From: Stenotrophomonas maltophilia
Lineage (GTDB): Bacteria > Pseudomonadota > Gammaproteobacteria > Xanthomonadales > Xanthomonadaceae
Length of the DNA: 64,000 bases
NCBI RefSeq assembly: GCF_900186865.1
Contig: NZ_LT906480.1
Span: 2,622,001-2,686,000 of the forward strand
Reading direction: 5' to 3'
Part shown: positions 29,577 through 43,545 of the stretch, piece by piece
Numbering within the stretch: the first letter of the stretch is position 1
Layout of the letters: every line of letters begins with the position of its first letter
Made by a program: the position numbers and the translations under genes
The notes under the pieces: generated by a model
What the model saw: only the letters and a program-made list of their open reading frames with translations
What the model was told of the DNA's origin: nothing
Databases searched by the model: none

Positions 29577-30698
29577 TCATGCCGCTGACGTCCATTGGCG
29601 GGCTTGGGTGGAACTGGCCATGGCAGGCACTGGCGTTGTCGCAAACACGCGACCTTCGAACAATCGGCGTGCGGTGCGGACCACGCTGGCAATCACCGGT
29701 GCGTCATCCGAGCTGCGACTGAGGCCCACCTGCAGGTCCCCGCTCGGATGTTCGAGGGTAATGCTGCCGGGAACGGACAGGCACCCGACCAAAGTGTGGG
29801 CCAGCGTGCCCGGCGTGACGGCGGCGGTAGCCAGGCCGACCGCGCCGGTAATGGCCAGTGCGGTGTGGCATTGGTGCGGCATGAAGTAACGCACCTGCAG
29901 ATCGCCGCCGTGTTGCGGCGCCGACAGCAGCACCGGCTTGGGAATGACCTTGTTGCCGGCGTCGGCGATGCCCATGCGGGCGCCCGCCTCGATGCGCAGC
30001 GCTTCCAGCCGGCGCATGAGCGCGGCATCCGCGTTCAGTTCGGCGGGCGATGCATCACCGCGCACGCCCAGGTCCTCGGCATGCACCAGCATCATCGGCA
30101 TGGCGCAGTCCACCAGGCTGACCGGCACGCCATCGATGGTTTCCCGGGCGTGGCCGCTGGGCAGCAGCTTGCCGGTGCGGGCGCCTGCGGCATCAAGGAA
30201 GGAAAGCCTGACCGGCGCGGCCGAGCCCGGTGCGCCGGCAATGCGCGTATCACCGCGGTAGACCAGATGGCCACCCGGCGTTTCCACCGTGGCGATGATC
30301 AGCTTGCCGGTGTTGACGTTGTGGATGCGCACCTCGGTCTGCGGATCCTGAGCCTGCACCAGCCCCCGCTCGATGGCGTACGGGCCCACCGCCGCCAGCA
30401 TGTTGCCGCAGTTGGGGGACGTGTCCACCACCTGCTGCTCCACCCGTACCTGGGCGAACAGATAGTCCACGTCGGCGTCTGCCCGGCTGGATCGATCGAT
30501 GATGGCCACCTTGCTGGTCAGTGCGTTGCCGCCACCGATGCCATCGATCTGCAGCGGATGGCCCGACCCCATTACTTCCACCAGCAGGCGATCGCGTTCA
30601 ACAACGTCCGCCGGAAGGTCGCTGGCCAGGAAGAACGGGCCCTTGGATGTACCACCGCGCATGAGTACGCAGGGAATGCTGAGCAGATCGTTGGACAT
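29577..30698 (-). CDS. PrpF/GalD-family isomerase (4-oxalomesaconate tautomerase-like)
   Basis: The ATG at 30698 gives 373 residues; upstream residues in the frame run into the divergent LysR gene. PrpF-family proteins have a double diaminopimelate-epimerase-like fold and move double bonds in di- and tricarboxylic acids. The visible features are CVLMRGGTSKGPFFLASDLP (start; CVLMRGGTSKG), DGIGGGNALTSKVAII and DTSPNCGNMLAAVGPYAI with its conserved Cys. The RGGTSKG start and length match 4-oxalomesaconate tautomerase GalD. No gallate dioxygenase or hydratase gene is near, so the pathway is unsettled. It heads an operon with the ABC transporter and porin. Confidence 0.82.
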   Translation of the reverse strand: MSNDLLSIPCVLMRGGTSKGPFFLASDLPADVVERDRLLVEVMGSGHPLQIDGIGGGNALTSKVAIIDRSSRADADVDYLFAQVRVEQQVVDTSPNCGNMLAAVGPYAIERGLVQAQDPQTEVRIHNVNTGKLIIATVETPGGHLVYRGDTRIAGAPGSAAPVRLSFLDAAGARTGKLLPSGHARETIDGVPVSLVDCAMPMMLVHAEDLGVRGDASPAELNADAALMRRLEALRIEAGARMGIADAGNKVIPKPVLLSAPQHGGDLQVRYFMPHQCHTALAITGAVGLATAAVTPGTLAHTLVGCLSVPGSITLEHPSGDLQVGLSRSSDDAPVIASVVRTARRLFEGRVFATTPVPAMASSTQARQWTSAA

Positions 30699-30721
30699 AC
30701 GTGTGTTAGATTGATGCGTGT

Positions 30722-30739
30722 AGGGGATGAATGACCCCT
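30722..30739. promoter_or_regulatory. Inverted repeat in the PrpF/LysR divergent promoter
   Basis: AGGGG and CCCCT arms around ATGAATGA, located 23 bp upstream of the PrpF-like start and 69 bp upstream of the LysR start. A plausible LysR operator, though the arms are short. Confidence 0.4.
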
Positions 30740-30807
30740 CTGTGATTCGATACTGGCATGACCCCAATTGATCTGTGAATTGCTGATTTTTGGATGATTG
30801 ATACCCA

Positions 30808-31710
30808 ATGAGCATCAATTGCGAGATCCTGGATCTACGCGCATTCCTGCTGGTGTCGGAGACGCGCAGCTTCCACCGCGCCGCGGAGATCCTGCACGTC
30901 TCCCAGCCGGCACTCAGCCGACGGATACAGAAGCTGGAGCAGGCTGTGGGTTCGCCACTGCTGGAGCGCACCACGCGCAGCGTCAGCACCACCGCCGTCG
31001 GCGAGAACCTGCTGCCGCTGGTGCGTCGTATGCTGGAGGAATTCGATGGGTCACTGTTCTCACTGCGGGGCCGGGACGATACGCGGGGCGCTACCGTCAC
31101 CATCGCCTGCCTGCCCACGGCGGCGTTCTACTTCCTGCCCAGCGTGATGGCGCGTTTCCACGAAGCGCATCCCAACGTGCGCTTCCGGATCCTGGATATC
31201 CCGGCCACCGAAGGCCTGCAGGCGGTAGAGCGTGGCGAAGTCGAGTTCGGCATCAACTTCATGGGCGCCAACGATCCGAATCTCGATTTCGACGTGCTGG
31301 CCGAAGATCCCTTCGTGCTGGCCTGCCGACGCGATCATCCGCTGGCCCGCAAGCGCAAGGTGGAATGGGCCGATCTGGCCGAGCACCAGCTGATCACCGT
31401 GCATCGCACCAGCGGCAACCGCACGCTGCTGGATGGTGCCCTGGCGCGCGAGAACCTCAAGCTGAGCTGGCACTACGAAGTGACCCACCTGTCGACGTCA
31501 CTGGGCATGGTCGAGGCCGGCATCGGCGTGTCGGTCCTGCCGAAAATGGCCACGCCGGACGGGGATCATCCGACCCTGGTGACGCGCACGATTGGTAACC
31601 CCGTGGTGTCGCGCACGATCGGGATCGTCCGTCGCCGGGGCGCCCTGCTCTCGCCTACTGCGGAACGCTTTCTGCAGATGTTGATGAGCCAGTGGCGCGG
31701 GGAGACCTGA
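30808..31710 (+). CDS. LysR-family regulator
   Basis: A 300-residue LysR-type regulator. The N-terminal helix-turn-helix (about 5-65) reads FHRAAEILHVSQPALSRRIQKLE (key AAEILHVSQPALSRRI), and the C-terminal effector domain begins near residue 95. It is divergent from the PrpF-like gene with 109 bp between starts, the usual arrangement for control of a divergent operon. It therefore probably regulates uptake and isomerisation of the carboxylic acid handled by that operon. Confidence 0.9.
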   Translation: MSINCEILDLRAFLLVSETRSFHRAAEILHVSQPALSRRIQKLEQAVGSPLLERTTRSVSTTAVGENLLPLVRRMLEEFDGSLFSLRGRDDTRGATVTIACLPTAAFYFLPSVMARFHEAHPNVRFRILDIPATEGLQAVERGEVEFGINFMGANDPNLDFDVLAEDPFVLACRRDHPLARKRKVEWADLAEHQLITVHRTSGNRTLLDGALARENLKLSWHYEVTHLSTSLGMVEAGIGVSVLPKMATPDGDHPTLVTRTIGNPVVSRTIGIVRRRGALLSPTAERFLQMLMSQWRGET

Positions 31711-36165: not shown

Positions 36166-37035
36166 TCAGCGGCGGGCAACCGATGGCAGCGCCCGATGCT
36201 GGTTGATCCAGTCCAACGACTGGGCAATTCCACCGAACGGAAAGAAGTGCGGGCTGACCAACCCGTGGGCATCAGTCAAACCGCCCGCCAGACGGTCCAC
36301 GAACACCTCCGGGCCCGCGCTGCCCAGCAACCGGCCGATCGAGATGCCATACCGGGACAGCATCAATGCACTGGCCCCCACCCCGCACATTGCGGCGTAG
36401 CGTACCAGCCGCGCGATGCTTGCCGGGCCCGGCACGCCAACCAGCACCGGAACGTGGATGCCACGGGCGCGCAGCGCGTGCAACCAGGCCAGGACGATGT
36501 CGGCATCGAAGGCGAACTGCGTGATGATCACTGGCGCCATGCCGCGCGCTTCGATGGACTGGCACTTGTGTTCCAGTACCTGCCAGCACGCGTCACTGCC
36601 CAGGACCGGATGGCCATCGGGGTGACCGCCGATGGCGACGACCTTGATACCGGCCCTCTCCAGAAGGCCGCTCTCGATGATCGAAGCGCTGTCAGCAAAT
36701 GGGCCGGCGGGCGTGGCCAGATCGCCAGCGATCACCAGGCACTGCGTTGCTCCGGCCTTGTTGGCGGCGCGCTGCAGGAACCGTTCAAGCACCGTGCGCG
36801 ACCGGATGCGGCGGGCCGAAAGATGCGGCATCGGCTCGAAGCCCAGTTCGCGCACCCTGCGCGCCGCTGCCAGGCGTGCGTCGTCGTCCTCGCTGGCCAG
36901 CCAGGGAATGGAGATCGTGGTGCCACGCGGAATGCGGGTGGCTTCGGCACCCAGCGCCGGCATGGCCCTGGCGCTCACCTCCAGCGAAAAGGCATCAAGG
37001 AAGGCCTGCACCCGCAGCGACGTAGGCGCGGACAT
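36166..37035 (-). CDS. MetF-like methylenetetrahydrofolate reductase homologue
   Basis: A 289-residue single-domain TIM barrel of the MetF type. Counterparts of E. coli MetF motifs are visible: SLEVS with Glu19 for SFEFFPP, MPHLSAR, AGDLATP, GGHPDGHP for YPEVHP, and ITQFAFDAD for ITQFFFD. The C-terminal end HFFPFGG differs from the usual FYTLN, so it is a divergent member. The likely cofactor is FAD. The start codon overlaps the stop of the upstream LysR gene as TGATG, so both are translated together. Its place beside mesX and mesD links it to methyl transfer for methionine. Confidence 0.82.
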   Translation of the reverse strand: MSAPTSLRVQAFLDAFSLEVSARAMPALGAEATRIPRGTTISIPWLASEDDDARLAAARRVRELGFEPMPHLSARRIRSRTVLERFLQRAANKAGATQCLVIAGDLATPAGPFADSASIIESGLLERAGIKVVAIGGHPDGHPVLGSDACWQVLEHKCQSIEARGMAPVIITQFAFDADIVLAWLHALRARGIHVPVLVGVPGPASIARLVRYAAMCGVGASALMLSRYGISIGRLLGSAGPEVFVDRLAGGLTDAHGLVSPHFFPFGGIAQSLDWINQHRALPSVARR

Positions 37036-37949
37036 CACGCGCCCACGCCTGCATTGCTGGCCAGGGGCGAACTGTTCCGCGCCAGTTCGATGAAGGCCTG
37101 CAGGTAGTCGATGCTGGTATCGGCCTCGCGCGCACCCAGATAGATCTGCTTGGGAATGCCCTTCGCACCGAGGCGCACCGGCACCACGTCCATGCGGGTG
37201 GCGTACTCTTCCACCAGCCAGCGCGGCATGGCGGCCACGCCACGACCACTGGCCACCATCTGCATCATGATGTCGGTGGTCTCAATGGCCTTGTGCCGTC
37301 GCGGCGTAATGCCGGCCGGCAGCAGGAACTGGTTGTAGATGTCCAGGCGCTCGAACGGCACCGGATAGCTGATCAGCACTTCCTGGCCGAGCTGGCGCGG
37401 CTTCACGTAATCCACCTTGGCCAGGGCGTGGTTCCTGGCCACCACCAGCACCTGCTCGTAGTCGAACACGGGAATGAACTTGAGGCCTGGCTTCAGCAGT
37501 GGATCGGGGGTAACCAGCAGGTCGATCTCGTAGCCGAACAGCGCGCCGATGCCGCCGAACTGGAATTTCTGCTTGACGTCCACATCCACATCCGGCCACG
37601 CGGCCAGGTATGGCGAGACGATCTTCAGCAGCCACTGGTAGCAGGGATGGCATTCCATGCCGATGCGCAGCGCGCCGCGCTCGCCCTGTGCGAACTGGCC
37701 CAACCGCTCCTCGGCCAGATCCAGCTGCGGCAGCACGCGGTTGGCGACGGCCAGCAGGTATTGCCCGGCCTGGGTCAGGCGCAGGCTGCGGCCTTCGCGC
37801 AGCCACACATCAGTGCCCAGCTGCTGCTCCAGCTTCTTCATGCTGTGGCTCAGGGCCGACTGGGTCAGGTTGAGTACGCCGGCGGCCGCGGTAAGCGAGC
37901 CCTGCTGCTCGACCTGCTGCACGATGCTGAGGTGGATCCGCTCCAGCAT
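37035..37949 (-). CDS. LysR-family regulator, MetR-like
   Basis: A 304-residue LysR-type regulator. The helix-turn-helix AAAGVLNLTQSALSHSMKKLE is near residues 22-42, followed by the sensor domain with RIGMECHPCYQWL, a stretch typical of MetR-type regulators of methionine genes that sense homocysteine. It is divergent from the flavin reductase/mesX/mesD genes, with 75 bp between start codons, and is coupled to the MetF-like gene. It probably controls both directions through the inverted repeat at 37976-37998. Confidence 0.88.
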   Translation of the reverse strand: MLERIHLSIVQQVEQQGSLTAAAGVLNLTQSALSHSMKKLEQQLGTDVWLREGRSLRLTQAGQYLLAVANRVLPQLDLAEERLGQFAQGERGALRIGMECHPCYQWLLKIVSPYLAAWPDVDVDVKQKFQFGGIGALFGYEIDLLVTPDPLLKPGLKFIPVFDYEQVLVVARNHALAKVDYVKPRQLGQEVLISYPVPFERLDIYNQFLLPAGITPRRHKAIETTDIMMQMVASGRGVAAMPRWLVEEYATRMDVVPVRLGAKGIPKQIYLGAREADTSIDYLQAFIELARNSSPLASNAGVGA

Positions 37950-37975
37950 GACGATGAATCCTGCTCATGGATAGG

Positions 37976-37998
37976 TGAAGTAATACCATTTTACGTCA
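37976..37998. promoter_or_regulatory. LysR/MetR-type operator in the mes divergent promoter
   Basis: Arms TGAAGTAA and TTACGTCA are inverted repeats matching at 7 of 8 positions, with a 7-base TACCATT spacer. The site lies between the divergent LysR and flavin reductase genes. The T-N11-A geometry of LysR sites and the TGAA start fit a MetR-like factor. Confidence 0.6.
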
Positions 37999-38024
37999 TG
38001 GAAGGCCGTGGCTAGCATCGGGTC

Positions 38025-38612
38025 ATGCTTTCACCTGCCCGCCCCCTTCGAATCGTCGCCGTGTCCGGCGGATTGCAGCGCCCCTCCAAGGCCGCCACCC
38101 TGGCCGAGCATCTGCTGGGCCTGATCGGCGAGGACATCCACAGCGAGCAGCACCTGGTCGAACTGGGCGCACTGGCCCCGCATCTGGCCGGTGCGCTCTG
38201 GCGTTCGCAGTTGCCCGACACCGTGGAACGCCAGTTGACCACCGTCGAGCAGGCCGATGTGCTGGTGGTGAGCACGCCGGTCTATCGCGGCTCGTACACA
38301 GGGCTGTTCAAGCATTTCTTCGACTTCGTCCACCAGGACGCACTGGTCGACACCCCCATCCTGCTGGCCGCGACCGGCGGCAGCGAGCGCCATTCGCTGG
38401 TGATCGACCATCAGCTGCGCCCGCTCTTCAGCTTCTTCCAGGCACGCACCCTGCCGCTGGGCGTCTACGCCACCGACCGCGATTTCGCCGACGGTCGCGT
38501 GCACAACGATGCCCTGATCGAGCGCGCACGGCTGGCGGTGCAGCGGGCCATGCCGCTGCTGGACCTGCCTCGCCAGCGCGCCGCCGACCTGGAAGCGGCC
38601 GCAGCACTTTGA
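38025..38612 (+). CDS. NADPH-dependent FMN reductase, MsuE-like
   Basis: A 195-residue flavodoxin-like flavin reductase. The FMN-binding loop VAVSGGLQRPSKAATLAEHLL (key SGGLQRPSK) and the STPVYRGSYTGLFKHFFDFV segment (key PVYRGSYTGLFKHF) match the MsuE/SsuE group that supplies reduced FMN to two-component monooxygenases. No such monooxygenase is adjacent; the next gene is mesX. It may therefore supply reduced flavin for the oxygen-dependent MesX/MesD system, which is inference. First gene of the divergent mes operon. Confidence 0.87.
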   Translation: MLSPARPLRIVAVSGGLQRPSKAATLAEHLLGLIGEDIHSEQHLVELGALAPHLAGALWRSQLPDTVERQLTTVEQADVLVVSTPVYRGSYTGLFKHFFDFVHQDALVDTPILLAATGGSERHSLVIDHQLRPLFSFFQARTLPLGVYATDRDFADGRVHNDALIERARLAVQRAMPLLDLPRQRAADLEAAAAL

Positions 38613-38668
38613 ATGCCGGATGCCCTCGCCCGCATCCGGATGTCACCCCGCACTACGGAACGCCACCC

Positions 38669-39646
38669 ATGACGACCGACACCTTCACCTTCAGCATCAC
38701 GCAGATCCCATTCAACGAGGATTACCAGCCTGCCGACGGGACGCGCATCACCACCAATTTCGCCAACCTGGCCCGCGGCGCGTCCCGCCAGGAAAACCTG
38801 CGCAACACGATCAGCATGATCAACAACCGCTTCAACGATCTGGCGCACTGGGACAACCCCAGCGCGGATCGCTACGCGGTCGAGCTGGACATCATCTCGG
38901 TGGAGATGCACATCGGCAACAGCGATGGCGGCGATCCGTTCCCGCTGATCGAGGTGCTGCGCCCGACCATCGTCGACACCCGCACCGGCGCGCGCATCGA
39001 AGGCATCGTCGGCAACAATTTCTCGTCCTACGTGCGCGACTACGATTTCAGCGTGGTGCTGCCGGCCAGCAACGAAGGGAAGGCCACCTTTGGCATCCCG
39101 GAGGGCTTTGGCGACCTGCATGGCAAGTTGTTCAAGCATTTCCTGGAGTCCGAGGCCTACCGCGCCAACTTCAGCAAGGGGCCGGTAATCTGCATCAGCG
39201 TATCCAGCAGCAAGACCTATCACCGCACCGAGAACCACCACCCGATCCTGGGCGTGGAATACCGCCAGAGCGAGTTCTCTCCCACTGACCAGTACTTCGA
39301 CAAGATGGGCCTGCAGGTGCGCTACTTCATGCCGCCGGGCAGCGTCGCACCGCTGGCGTTCTACTTCCAGGGCGACCTGCTGGGCGACTACTCGAACCTG
39401 GAGCTGATCGGCACCATCAGCACGATGGAGGCCTTCCAGAAGATCTACCGCCCGGAGATCTACAACGCCAACTCCGTGGCGGGCAAGGTCTACCAGCCCA
39501 GCCTGAAGCACCAGGATTACTCCTCCACCCGCATCGTCTACGACCGCGAAGAGCGCAGCCAGCTGGCGGTCAAGCAGGGCCGGTTCACCGAAGAACACTT
39601 CATCAAGCCGTACCGCGACGTGCTTGAGCAGTGGGCTGCCCGCTGA
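38669..39646 (+). CDS. mesX: DUF1852 protein MesX, partner of methionine synthase MesD
   Basis: The ATG at 38669 gives 325 residues, all matching the DUF1852 type (FSITQIPFNEDYQPADGTRITTNFANLARG at the start; key FSI, F, Y, R, TTNFANLARG). No membrane segment or signal peptide is present. From published work as I recall it, DUF1852 (MesX) is needed together with MesD for a folate-independent methionine synthesis that requires oxygen; the methyl donor is not known. mesD follows 39 bp downstream, which supports the assignment. Confidence 0.88.
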   Translation: MTTDTFTFSITQIPFNEDYQPADGTRITTNFANLARGASRQENLRNTISMINNRFNDLAHWDNPSADRYAVELDIISVEMHIGNSDGGDPFPLIEVLRPTIVDTRTGARIEGIVGNNFSSYVRDYDFSVVLPASNEGKATFGIPEGFGDLHGKLFKHFLESEAYRANFSKGPVICISVSSSKTYHRTENHHPILGVEYRQSEFSPTDQYFDKMGLQVRYFMPPGSVAPLAFYFQGDLLGDYSNLELIGTISTMEAFQKIYRPEIYNANSVAGKVYQPSLKHQDYSSTRIVYDREERSQLAVKQGRFTEEHFIKPYRDVLEQWAAR

Positions 39647-39685
39647 TCCATTGATTCCCCATTCGCCCCCAGGAAACCAGACGCA

Positions 39686-40720
39686 ATGTCGACGAAGAAA
39701 CTGCTTCCCACCTCCACCGCAGGCAGCCTGCCCAAGCCCTCCTGGCTGGCCGAGCCCGAGAAGCTCTGGTCACCCTGGAAGCTGCAGGACGACGGCCTGA
39801 TTGAAGGCAAGCAGGATGCACTGCGCCTGTCCCTGCAGGAGCAGCAGCACGCCGGCATCGACATCGTCAGCGACGGCGAACAGACCCGGCAGCACTTCGT
39901 CACCACTTTCATCGAGCACCTCAGCGGCGTCGATTTCGAGAAGCGCGAAACGGTCCGCATCCGCAACCGCTACGATGCCAGCGTGCCGACCGTGGTCGGC
40001 GCCGTGAGCCGTCCGAAGCCGGTGTTCGTCGAGGATGCGAAGTTCCTGCGCCGCCAGACCACGCAGCCGATCAAGTGGGCCCTGCCCGGCCCGATGACCA
40101 TGATCGATACGCTGTACGACGCGCACTACAAGAGCCGCGAAAAGCTGGCCTGGGAGTTCGCGAAGATCCTCAACGAGGAAGCGAAGGAGCTGGAAGCCGC
40201 TGGCGTCGACATCATCCAGTTCGATGAGCCGGCCTTCAACGTGTTCTTCGACGAAGTGAACGACTGGGGCGTGGCCGCGCTGGAGCGTGCGGTTGAGGGC
40301 CTGAAGTGCCAGACGGCGGTGCACATCTGCTACGGCTATGGCATCAAGGCCAACACCGACTGGAAGCAGACACTGGGCTCGGAATGGCGGCAGTATGAAG
40401 AATCGTTCCCCAAGCTGCAGACCTCCAGCATCGACATCATCTCGCTGGAATGCCAGAACTCGCACGTACCGATCGACCTGATCGAACTGGTGCGCGGCAA
40501 GACGGTGATGGTGGGCGCCATCGACGTAGCCTCCAATACGGTCGAAACGCCGGAAGACGTGGCCAACACGCTGCGCAGGGCGCTGCAGTTCGTGGATGCC
40601 GACAAACTCTACCCAAGCACCAACTGCGGCATGGCGCCGCTTGCACGGGAAGTGGCACGCGGCAAGCTGCGCGCGCTCAGCGAAGGGGCCAGGATCGTGC
40701 GTGAGGAGCTTTCGGCGTAA
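39686..40720 (+). CDS. mesD: Short cobalamin-independent methionine synthase (MesD type)
   Basis: A 344-residue enzyme equal to the C-terminal catalytic half of MetE; the N-terminal folate-related half is absent. The zinc and homocysteine site is complete: His213 and Cys215 (AVHICYG), Glu255 (ISLECQN) and Cys314 (STNCGM). It methylates homocysteine to methionine. Together with MesX it forms a system independent of methylfolate. The ATG has an AGGAAA site. The gene's last 44 bases overlap a convergent open frame of unclear status. Confidence 0.9.
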   Translation: MSTKKLLPTSTAGSLPKPSWLAEPEKLWSPWKLQDDGLIEGKQDALRLSLQEQQHAGIDIVSDGEQTRQHFVTTFIEHLSGVDFEKRETVRIRNRYDASVPTVVGAVSRPKPVFVEDAKFLRRQTTQPIKWALPGPMTMIDTLYDAHYKSREKLAWEFAKILNEEAKELEAAGVDIIQFDEPAFNVFFDEVNDWGVAALERAVEGLKCQTAVHICYGYGIKANTDWKQTLGSEWRQYEESFPKLQTSSIDIISLECQNSHVPIDLIELVRGKTVMVGAIDVASNTVETPEDVANTLRRALQFVDADKLYPSTNCGMAPLAREVARGKLRALSEGARIVREELSA

Positions 40721-42387: not shown

Positions 42388-43545
42388 TCAACGCGCCGCG
42401 ATTCTCCCGACCAGGGTATCGATCGCCGCCTCCATGGCACGCGCGGTCCGGTCGCCGCTCTGGTTGGTGATCACGAAGATGCCCAGATCGTGCTCCGGCA
42501 TGATGTAGATGTAGCACTGCGAGCGTGGAACGCCACCGTGGTGGGCGTAATAGACACCCTTCTGGCGATCGCCAGCGACGATGTTCCAGAAATAGCCGAT
42601 GCTGAACTCGTCGTCGAATCTGGCCAGAGTGCGATGCGATTCCTGCACCACCGGGCCGTTGGCCAGCTGGAACTGAAGGTATTTCACCATGTCGGGCACT
42701 GTTGCCTTGACGTTGCCGGAAGCGCCCCATGGCAACTGTGGCATCGGCGAGGTCGGCACCGGATTGTCGCTGTGGTAGCCGATGGCAAGACGGTCTTTTT
42801 CCGCATTCCCCAGCTTGATCCCGATGCTGGTCATTGCTGCGGCGTCGCTGAAGAAGCCACGCAGCAATGACGTGTAGTCGGTCTTGTAGACGCCTTCCAG
42901 AATGTGGGCCGTCAGCTCCGTCCCAGCACTGGAGTAGGCGTACTCTTTCCCGGGCATCCGTGGGATCCGCACGGCGTGCAGATCCCGCAGGAAATCCGGC
43001 TTGCCGTAATGCGCATAGAGGGCACTGAGTTCACCGGGCACGCGGTGATCGGTGAAGTCCTCCAACACGGTGTTCGCCCGCTCCGGCAGCATGTTCGGCA
43101 GGCCACTGGTGTGTGACAGCAGGTGACGGACCCGTATGGGCTGGCCCTGGTACTGCAGGTTCGGATAGTCGCCCTGCAGGTAGCTGCGAACGTCATCCTC
43201 CAGGCCCACCCTGCCCTCAAGCACCGCACGGGCCATCAACGTGCCCGCCAGGGTCTTGCTCAGCGAGCCGATCTCATACAGCGTTGCGTCGGTCGGAACA
43301 TCGGGCTTGCCGGCTACCATCTCGCCGCGGTGACGGATGAAGGTCTTGCCCCGGTACACCACGCCGATGGAGGCCGAGTGCAGCAAAGGCTGTTCGATCA
43401 GGGCCTGGGCCACCTCGTCAACCGCCGCCCCCACATCGTTCGGCGGAGTCTTCCTGCCCTCGCAGCCGACGGCAAGGAGCACTGCGGATAGCACGACGGC
43501 ATTGAGCCATTGCCGGTTTCGGGTAGTCGTTGACATGGATTCCAT
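42388..43545 (-). CDS. Lipoprotein serine hydrolase, beta-lactamase-like fold
   Basis: A 385-residue protein with a hydrophobic N-terminus and a lipobox-like LLAVGC at residue 28. The SxxK motif is SLSK, followed by HTSGL and the Tyr-Ser-Ser element YAYSSAGTEL. The fold belongs to the class C beta-lactamase/DD-peptidase-like family, which includes esterases and peptidases. It probably faces the periplasm. The ATG at 43536 is an alternative. It is a second such enzyme in the window but not a close copy of the one at 14 kb. Confidence 0.85.
   Translation of the reverse strand: MESMSTTTRNRQWLNAVVLSAVLLAVGCEGRKTPPNDVGAAVDEVAQALIEQPLLHSASIGVVYRGKTFIRHRGEMVAGKPDVPTDATLYEIGSLSKTLAGTLMARAVLEGRVGLEDDVRSYLQGDYPNLQYQGQPIRVRHLLSHTSGLPNMLPERANTVLEDFTDHRVPGELSALYAHYGKPDFLRDLHAVRIPRMPGKEYAYSSAGTELTAHILEGVYKTDYTSLLRGFFSDAAAMTSIGIKLGNAEKDRLAIGYHSDNPVPTSPMPQLPWGASGNVKATVPDMVKYLQFQLANGPVVQESHRTLARFDDEFSIGYFWNIVAGDRQKGVYYAHHGGVPRSQCYIYIMPEHDLGIFVITNQSGDRTARAMEAAIDTLVGRIAAR

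Follow-up and report, generated by a model that had tools for sequence, protein, structure and literature searches.

We analyzed a 64,000-nucleotide stretch of Stenotrophomonas maltophilia (contig NZ_LT906480.1, positions 2,622,001 to 2,686,000 of the forward strand; hereafter the window) from a 5.0 Mb genome assembled as one contig. The window carries a cluster of five genes around mesX (DUF1852) and mesD, a core methionine synthase gene, arranged in two divergent arms with 75 bp between them (Table 1). A metF-like gene and a MetR-like regulator gene form the minus-strand arm, in which the stop of the regulator gene overlaps the start of the metF-like gene (TGATG), and msuE, mesX, and mesD form the plus-strand arm. 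A sequence-only reading of this DNA had named the same five genes, with an MsuE-like flavin reductase opening the plus arm and the divergent MetF-like gene coupled to the regulator, and the coordinates, family matches, and overlap bear this out.

The MesX protein matched the PF08908 profile over its whole length. This family carries the Pfam name "putative oxygenase", and the window copy was up to 97% identical to S. maltophilia copies. Sequence and profile searches of the PDB returned no significant relative of MesX, with one profile match at E 0.1. MesD, encoded next to mesX, consists of the core synthase domain only (PF01717), without a folate-binding N-terminus, and contains the four zinc ligands listed in the sequence-only reading (His213, Cys215, Glu255, and Cys314). 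The regulator is called MetR-like only, since its best NCBIfam model, the MetR equivalog NF011950, scored 221.7 bits against a cut-off of 382. The metF-like product scored 29.9 bits with the canonical MetF equivalog TIGR00676 (cut-off 293.7), and a separate canonical MetF was found elsewhere in the same genome at 290 bits. Like E. coli MetF and MetR, the pair combines a methylenetetrahydrofolate reductase (MTHFR) fold with a LysR regulator and a MetR-box-like site in the divergent gap, but both window proteins fall well below the equivalog cut-offs.

Table 1. Genes and elements of the cluster, and one further gene of the window discussed in the text (positions within the window; aa, amino acids).
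Feature	Position	Strand	Description	Family match
metF-like gene	36166..37035	-	289 aa, ATG start, GTG one codon upstream	PF02219 MTHFR, 36.5 bits
MetR-like LysR-family regulator gene	37035..37949	-	304 aa	PF00126/PF03466
MetR-box-like element TGAATCCTGCTCA	37955..37967		in divergent gap 37950-38024; 7/8 consensus letters	
msuE-type FMN (flavin mononucleotide) reductase gene	38025..38612	+	195 aa	TIGR03566, 248.7 bits (cut-off 212.5)
mesX (DUF1852)	38669..39646	+	325 aa	PF08908, 606.3 bits, positions 3-323 of 323
mesD, core methionine synthase gene	39686..40720	+	344 aa	NF006589, 702.7 bits (cut-off 392); PF01717
4-oxalomesaconate tautomerase gene	29577-31118	-		NF033377, 496.9 bits (cut-off 440)

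The core of the cluster is not new, as MesX/MesD and the neighboring flavin reductase were described by Price et al. in 2021 (PMC7857596; statements on this and the other papers cited here refer to the accessible parts of their text). In that work, oxygen-dependent methionine synthesis independent of B12 and of methyl-tetrahydrofolate (methyl-THF) was demonstrated with S. koreensis genes, MesD required MesX and oxygen and not methyl-THF, mesX and mesD alone rescued both E. coli delta-metE and delta-metF, and a putative flavin reductase was frequently located near mesX-mesD. The window cluster shares with that system the mesX-mesD pair, the zinc ligands, the nearby flavin reductase, and a setting of genomes that mostly have MetH, whereas it adds linked MetR-like and MetF-like genes, with QueH in the loci of relatives. 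The accessible text of PMC7857596 does not contain the terms riboswitch, queuosine, or trap and does not mention linked MetR-like, MetF-like, or QueH genes; it does mention a MetF relative of Acinetobacter baylyi, ACIAD1783, that is unlinked to mesX-mesD. A literature search, with subscription journals mostly outside its coverage, found no work that connects MesX/DUF1852 to QueH, to a riboswitch, or to a MetF-like gene linked to it, and nothing usable for linking the methionine need of S. maltophilia with the cluster. We regard the mesX-mesD core as known and its extension (MetR-like, MetF-like, QueH, and a vitamin B12 theme) as new.

The extended cluster recurs in other genomes. We compared 80 loci, with flanks of up to 8 kb on either side, that were most like the window MesX (the best 80 of 477 confirmed mesX places; about 20 from Stenotrophomonas). 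All 80 contained mesD, 77 contained MsuE, 76 a MetR-like gene (at least 60% identity), and 61 a match to the metF-like gene (60 intact, one broken), so that this survey of DUF1852 loci supports the wider linkage proposed in the sequence-only reading. Because they were chosen by likeness to the window MesX, the loci lean toward Xanthomonadaceae and Burkholderiales. The MsuE, MetR-like, and MetF-like genes accompany mesX-mesD in Xanthomonadaceae and several Burkholderiales genera, and the linkage of metF-like and MetR-like genes is kept across Xanthomonas, Achromobacter, Bordetella, and Janthinobacterium. In a separate draw from the window's own family, the metF-like gene occurred in 47 of 395 genomes at E ≤ 1e-40, with a MetR-like gene beside it in 30/30 of the best loci. 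Among 369 genomes of the class, mesX exceeded its cut-off in six and a MetF-like relative (E ≤ 1e-20) was present in 18; both genomes with a close, island-type copy (G000 and G274) also carry mesX. A distant set comprised 14 plasmid-borne mesX loci of 209 records with a match (six from alphaproteobacteria, four from Burkholderiales, and four from gammaproteobacteria). Seven of these contained a MetR-like gene (at least 50% identity), and the metF-like copy at the Cupriavidus N-1 plasmid locus was partial and broken. A 466-aa MTHFR relative next to queH in Acinetobacter rudis was rejected as an instance of the same module, as the genes are convergent and the protein is different. A match to PurU (formyl-THF deformylase) was observed in eight Xanthomonas loci (e.g., L030 and L040), beyond the metF-like gene and on the opposite strand; PurU was also seen beside MetF relatives within demethylase clusters.

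Outside Stenotrophomonas, the MetR-like proteins were 86–93% identical to that of the window and most MesD proteins 86–92% (58% in two loci, L064 and L066). Such high identities, as after horizontal transfer, together with the patchy occurrence of the metF-like gene, would fit a mobile methionine module that carries this gene without shared function. We consider such hitchhiking quite unlikely, as the gene is broken in only one of the 61 loci having it, overlaps the regulator gene in the window, and is under purifying constraint (dN/dS, the ratio of nonsynonymous to synonymous divergence, of 0.16–0.24 in eight Stenotrophomonas pairs). Synonymous divergence of the metF-like gene was 0.59–0.83 in seven of the eight pairs and 0.30 in one, mostly well above the 0.14–0.54 that these pairs show for the neighboring genes, which may reflect recombination or a separate history.

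The divergent gap was conserved across families (25 of 77 gaps aligned). When scored against TGAA-N5-TTCA, which we take to be the MetR-box consensus, 67 of the 77 gaps contained a site with at least seven of the eight letters, nearly always in the same place, while single-base shuffles gave an expectation of about 3.5 of 77. The 77 gaps represent 75 loci and include that of the window two times; the loci carrying the site are related and not independent cases. Together, the conserved gap and the recurrent site suggest regulation of both arms of the cluster by the MetR-like protein. Homocysteine, to which E. coli MetR responds, would by analogy be its signal.

The MetF-like protein appears to belong to a distinct subfamily. 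By both sequence and fold, its nearest structures were 7xg9 and 7xlf, the SYK-6-type MTHFR, ahead of canonical MTHFR, with 35–36% identity to the SYK-6 enzyme in the structural alignment. In a tree from which near-identical and short rows and two long or duplicate ones were excluded, and whose outgroup branch is very long, the island metF-like copies formed one clade (100/99). Its sister group (98/93) held two copies from sphingomonads, located next to GcvT/LigM-type genes, and a third copy without such a gene. Sequence, tree, and structural model place the predicted protein nearest the Sphingobium SYK-6-type MTHFR and not canonical MetF. The "altered C-terminus" of the sequence-only reading was correct in that the protein is non-canonical, but the difference spans the whole length and reflects another MTHFR subfamily. 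Glu19, a candidate catalytic glutamate, was invariant in 25/25 rows and resembles E. coli Glu28, although a four-row alignment placed the two in different columns; the GD and TQ motifs were aligned there.

For the SYK-6-type MTHFR, the reported direction is methyl-THF to methylene-THF, and the enzyme is coupled with demethylases that depend on THF (Yu et al. 2025, via the review PMC13001107). The grouping of the MetF-like protein with this enzyme therefore points to draining methyl-folate and not supplying it. The sequence-only reading had the MetF-like protein supplying or sensing the methyl source of MesX, and a role in feeding MesX/MesD, directly or via a folate intermediate, would fit the tight linkage of the metF-like gene and the shared gap with its conserved site. 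Yet mesX and mesD suffice in E. coli delta-metF, MesD has no folate domain, and an intact metF-like copy is missing from 20 of the 80 near loci and from the 14 distant loci examined. With the SYK-6 grouping pointing the other way, we consider that the feeding role is not supported and is decidedly improbable.

A second alternative is that the gene serves catabolic demethylation (LigM-like, of aromatic methoxy groups) and is merely lodged beside mesX-mesD. The neighborhoods of its relatives elsewhere are evidence for a methyl-THF drain: a GcvT-type gene adjoins the MetF-like relative in 5/5 hand-picked plasmid loci, and among 13 further loci one was adjacent in three (L145–L147), with a weak match about 4 kb away in L140. 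Four of the 13 (L136–L138 and L140) contained operons resembling corrinoid methyltransferase operons; in L136, where the families were tested, a B12-binding protein, DUF1638, a pterin-binding methyltransferase, and RACo stand next to the MetF relative. These look-alike operons probably serve methyl catabolism, and the GcvT-type and corrinoid-type neighborhoods are places where methyl-THF is made. Demethylation is favored by the GcvT/LigM-type genes adjoining two of the three nearest outside relatives and by the 4-oxalomesaconate tautomerase gene of the window, which encodes an enzyme of protocatechuate 4,5-cleavage, lies about 5 kb away from the metF-like gene, and is overlapping-divergent with a PsrA-like LysR gene that scored below its cut-off. 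However, no GcvT/LigM-type match was found in the 80 loci (tblastn with three reference proteins, E ≤ 1e-10, at least 35% of the query; the search for LigM homologues did not extend to the rest of the genome), and none was seen among the open reading frames and families around the cluster in the window, so the gene does not lie beside a THF-dependent demethylase there. The window gene resembles the SYK-6-type enzyme in sequence, fold, and tree position but differs in its neighbors, which are a MetR-like regulator and a methionine synthase that works without B12, with no demethylase found nearby. With the MetR-like linkage also persisting in Xanthomonas, Achromobacter, Bordetella, and Janthinobacterium, we consider a demethylation role unlikely.

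Other neighbors in the window include a BLUF blue-light sensor gene (PF04940; 34926-35399, minus strand) that adjoins the cluster and is present in only 2/80 related loci, an 882-aa UvrA-like ABC ATPase (PF17755; 31776-34424, minus strand), and a 385-aa beta-lactamase-fold protein (42388-43545, minus strand; PF00144 family match only).

The presence of B12-related genes was investigated in 55 mesX genomes, comprising the genomes of 50 of the 80 loci and five more. MetH and canonical MetF were each found in 54/55, MetE in 26, and CbiC, a marker of B12 synthesis, in two (not found in 53). Since CbiC is one marker, a lack of B12 synthesis in most of the 55 genomes is likely and not proved. The window's own genome contains MetH and canonical MetF; MetE and CbiC were searched for there and not found. 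QueH, a B12-independent epoxyqueuosine reductase that is an alternative to the B12-dependent QueG (PMC6461909), occurred in 16/80 loci in four gene orders, with the family confirmed in two loci. Robbsia has the order queH-mesX-mesD, and in one genome (G224) queH lies downstream of mesD, cut short beside a frame resembling a transposase by eye. All 55 genomes had at least one of the two enzymes (both in 19, QueH only in 17, and QueG only in 19). The window cluster is without queH; both QueH and QueG are encoded at other places in its genome. As another pairing of B12-independent enzymes, QueH was found directly beside MetE in three genomes (G373:C155, G383:C62, and G396:C25). In Bordetella ansorpii, a further metR(truncated)-queH-metF module stands apart from mesX (L125, 6196-8355), next to a possible mobile-element frame.

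B12-independent replacement enzymes (metE and others) sit under B12 riboswitches. A cobalamin riboswitch was located directly upstream of mesX, on the same strand, in Novosphingobium and two Agrobacterium loci (L093, L097, and L150), and in the gap upstream of mesX, on the other strand, in Shinella and Acetobacter; Paracoccus, the sixth alphaproteobacterial mesX locus examined, had none. RF00174 matched 0/28 beta- and gammaproteobacterial mesX sources, window included. The cluster resembles the known stand-ins (riboswitch-controlled metE and others; QueH for QueG) in replacing B12 enzymes and in the riboswitch above some mesX genes, but differs in being clustered in part of the lineages and in having no RF00174 in those 28 sources, where the MetR-like regulator may take the place of the riboswitch. 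In Acinetobacter baumannii AB5075, the DUF1852 transcript falls in response to B12 (log2 −8.3), as does that of a flavin reductase two locus tags away (log2 −2.5) (PMC12892962).

Methylcitrate-cycle genes (acnD, prpF, prpC, and prpB or PrpB-like) were observed beside mesX-mesD in Acidovorax, Comamonas, Novosphingobium, and Paracoccus (L092, L093, L098, and L148), that is, in four of 12 annotated, hand-chosen plasmid loci; the PrpB-like proteins of Acidovorax and Comamonas scored below the prpB cut-off. As a B12-independent propionate route, these neighbors would fit the theme of B12 independence and are offered as a lead only. Matches to "prpF" beside the cluster in seven Stenotrophomonas loci were rejected, since the window's own is the 4-oxalomesaconate tautomerase and not part of the methylcitrate cycle.

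The methylfolate trap is a textbook consequence of B12 deficiency. In Gram-negatives under sulfonamide, methyl-THF accumulates after loss of MetH or B12 uptake, and MetH and MetE are the only ways of bacterial escape named in the accessible text (PMC5070874). The reading we prefer, which we hold at about even odds, is that the cluster is a module for B12 scarcity: MesX/MesD would make methionine, and the MetF-like enzyme would drain the methyl-THF that an idle MetH cannot use. When B12 is short, MetH would stall and homocysteine would rise, and the MetR-like regulator, acting as MetR does, would then switch on both arms. MsuE would make reduced FMN (FMNH2) for MesX, a supply favored by the flavin reductase of another family (PF01613) that adjoins mesD in Acinetobacter. 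MesX with oxygen would free a methyl group from some metabolite and pass it to MesD for homocysteine. The use of reduced flavin and oxygen by MesX is a published inference (section 13 of PMC7857596), with which the sequence-only reading agrees. MetF would meanwhile go on making 5-methyl-THF, unusable by the idle MetH; the MetF-like enzyme would oxidize it back to methylene-THF, and the methylfolate trap would be relieved. In part of the lineages, queH would add a B12-independent replacement of QueG in the same neighborhood. S. mori (G414, a single draft genome) offers the most telling case. It has canonical MetF, MesX/MesD, and, beside msuE, a metF-like gene that is intact; no MetE, no MetH (by PF02965 and PF02574), and no MetR-like gene at the mesX locus were found in it. 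Methyl-THF there has, to our knowledge, no outlet other than the MetF-like enzyme. Of the earlier interpretation, the extended linkage and the flavin and oxygen use are retained and the role of the MetF-like protein is not; the link to B12 (QueH, riboswitches, and CbiC) was absent from it.

Several observations weigh against this scarcity reading. The metF-like gene is absent or broken in 20/80 near loci, and an intact copy was found in 0/14 of the more distant plasmid-borne loci examined. Its dN/dS is similar to that of MsuE (0.12–0.29) and above those of the MetR-like, MesX, and MesD genes (0.03–0.13). Six of the 13 further loci of MetF-like relatives had no recognized demethylase or corrinoid-type neighbor, and the reverse direction is carried over by analogy from the SYK-6 enzyme at 35–36% identity. 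The 55 genomes are related, so their counts are not independent. A prediction that the MetF-like gene favors genomes without MetE failed: it was present in 16/26 genomes with MetE and 18/29 without (Fisher p 1.0), or, conversely, MetE was present in 16/34 genomes with the metF-like gene and 10/21 without, counting one genome with weak partial MetE matches only (G375) as MetE present and broken metF-like copies as absent. MetE would itself also drain methyl-THF. There was likewise no significant association between the metF-like gene and QueH in the genome (p 0.15), and PP_4638 of P. putida, a MetF relative of unplaced subfamily, gave no phenotype in 101 experiments (PMC7857596).

More tentatively, the cluster could be a portable B12-independence island in users of environmental B12, in which a regulated, reverse-running MTHFR that undoes the methylfolate trap is combined with a methionine synthase that needs no B12 and, in some cases, with a B12-free enzyme of tRNA modification. 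Repression of mesX by B12 where no riboswitch was found would then perhaps act via homocysteine and the MetR-like regulator. If the B12-scarcity reading is true, the metF-like gene would be irrelevant to the methyl donor of MesX and relevant to the folate pool, and a dedicated methyl-THF-oxidizing enzyme would represent a new solution to the methylfolate trap.

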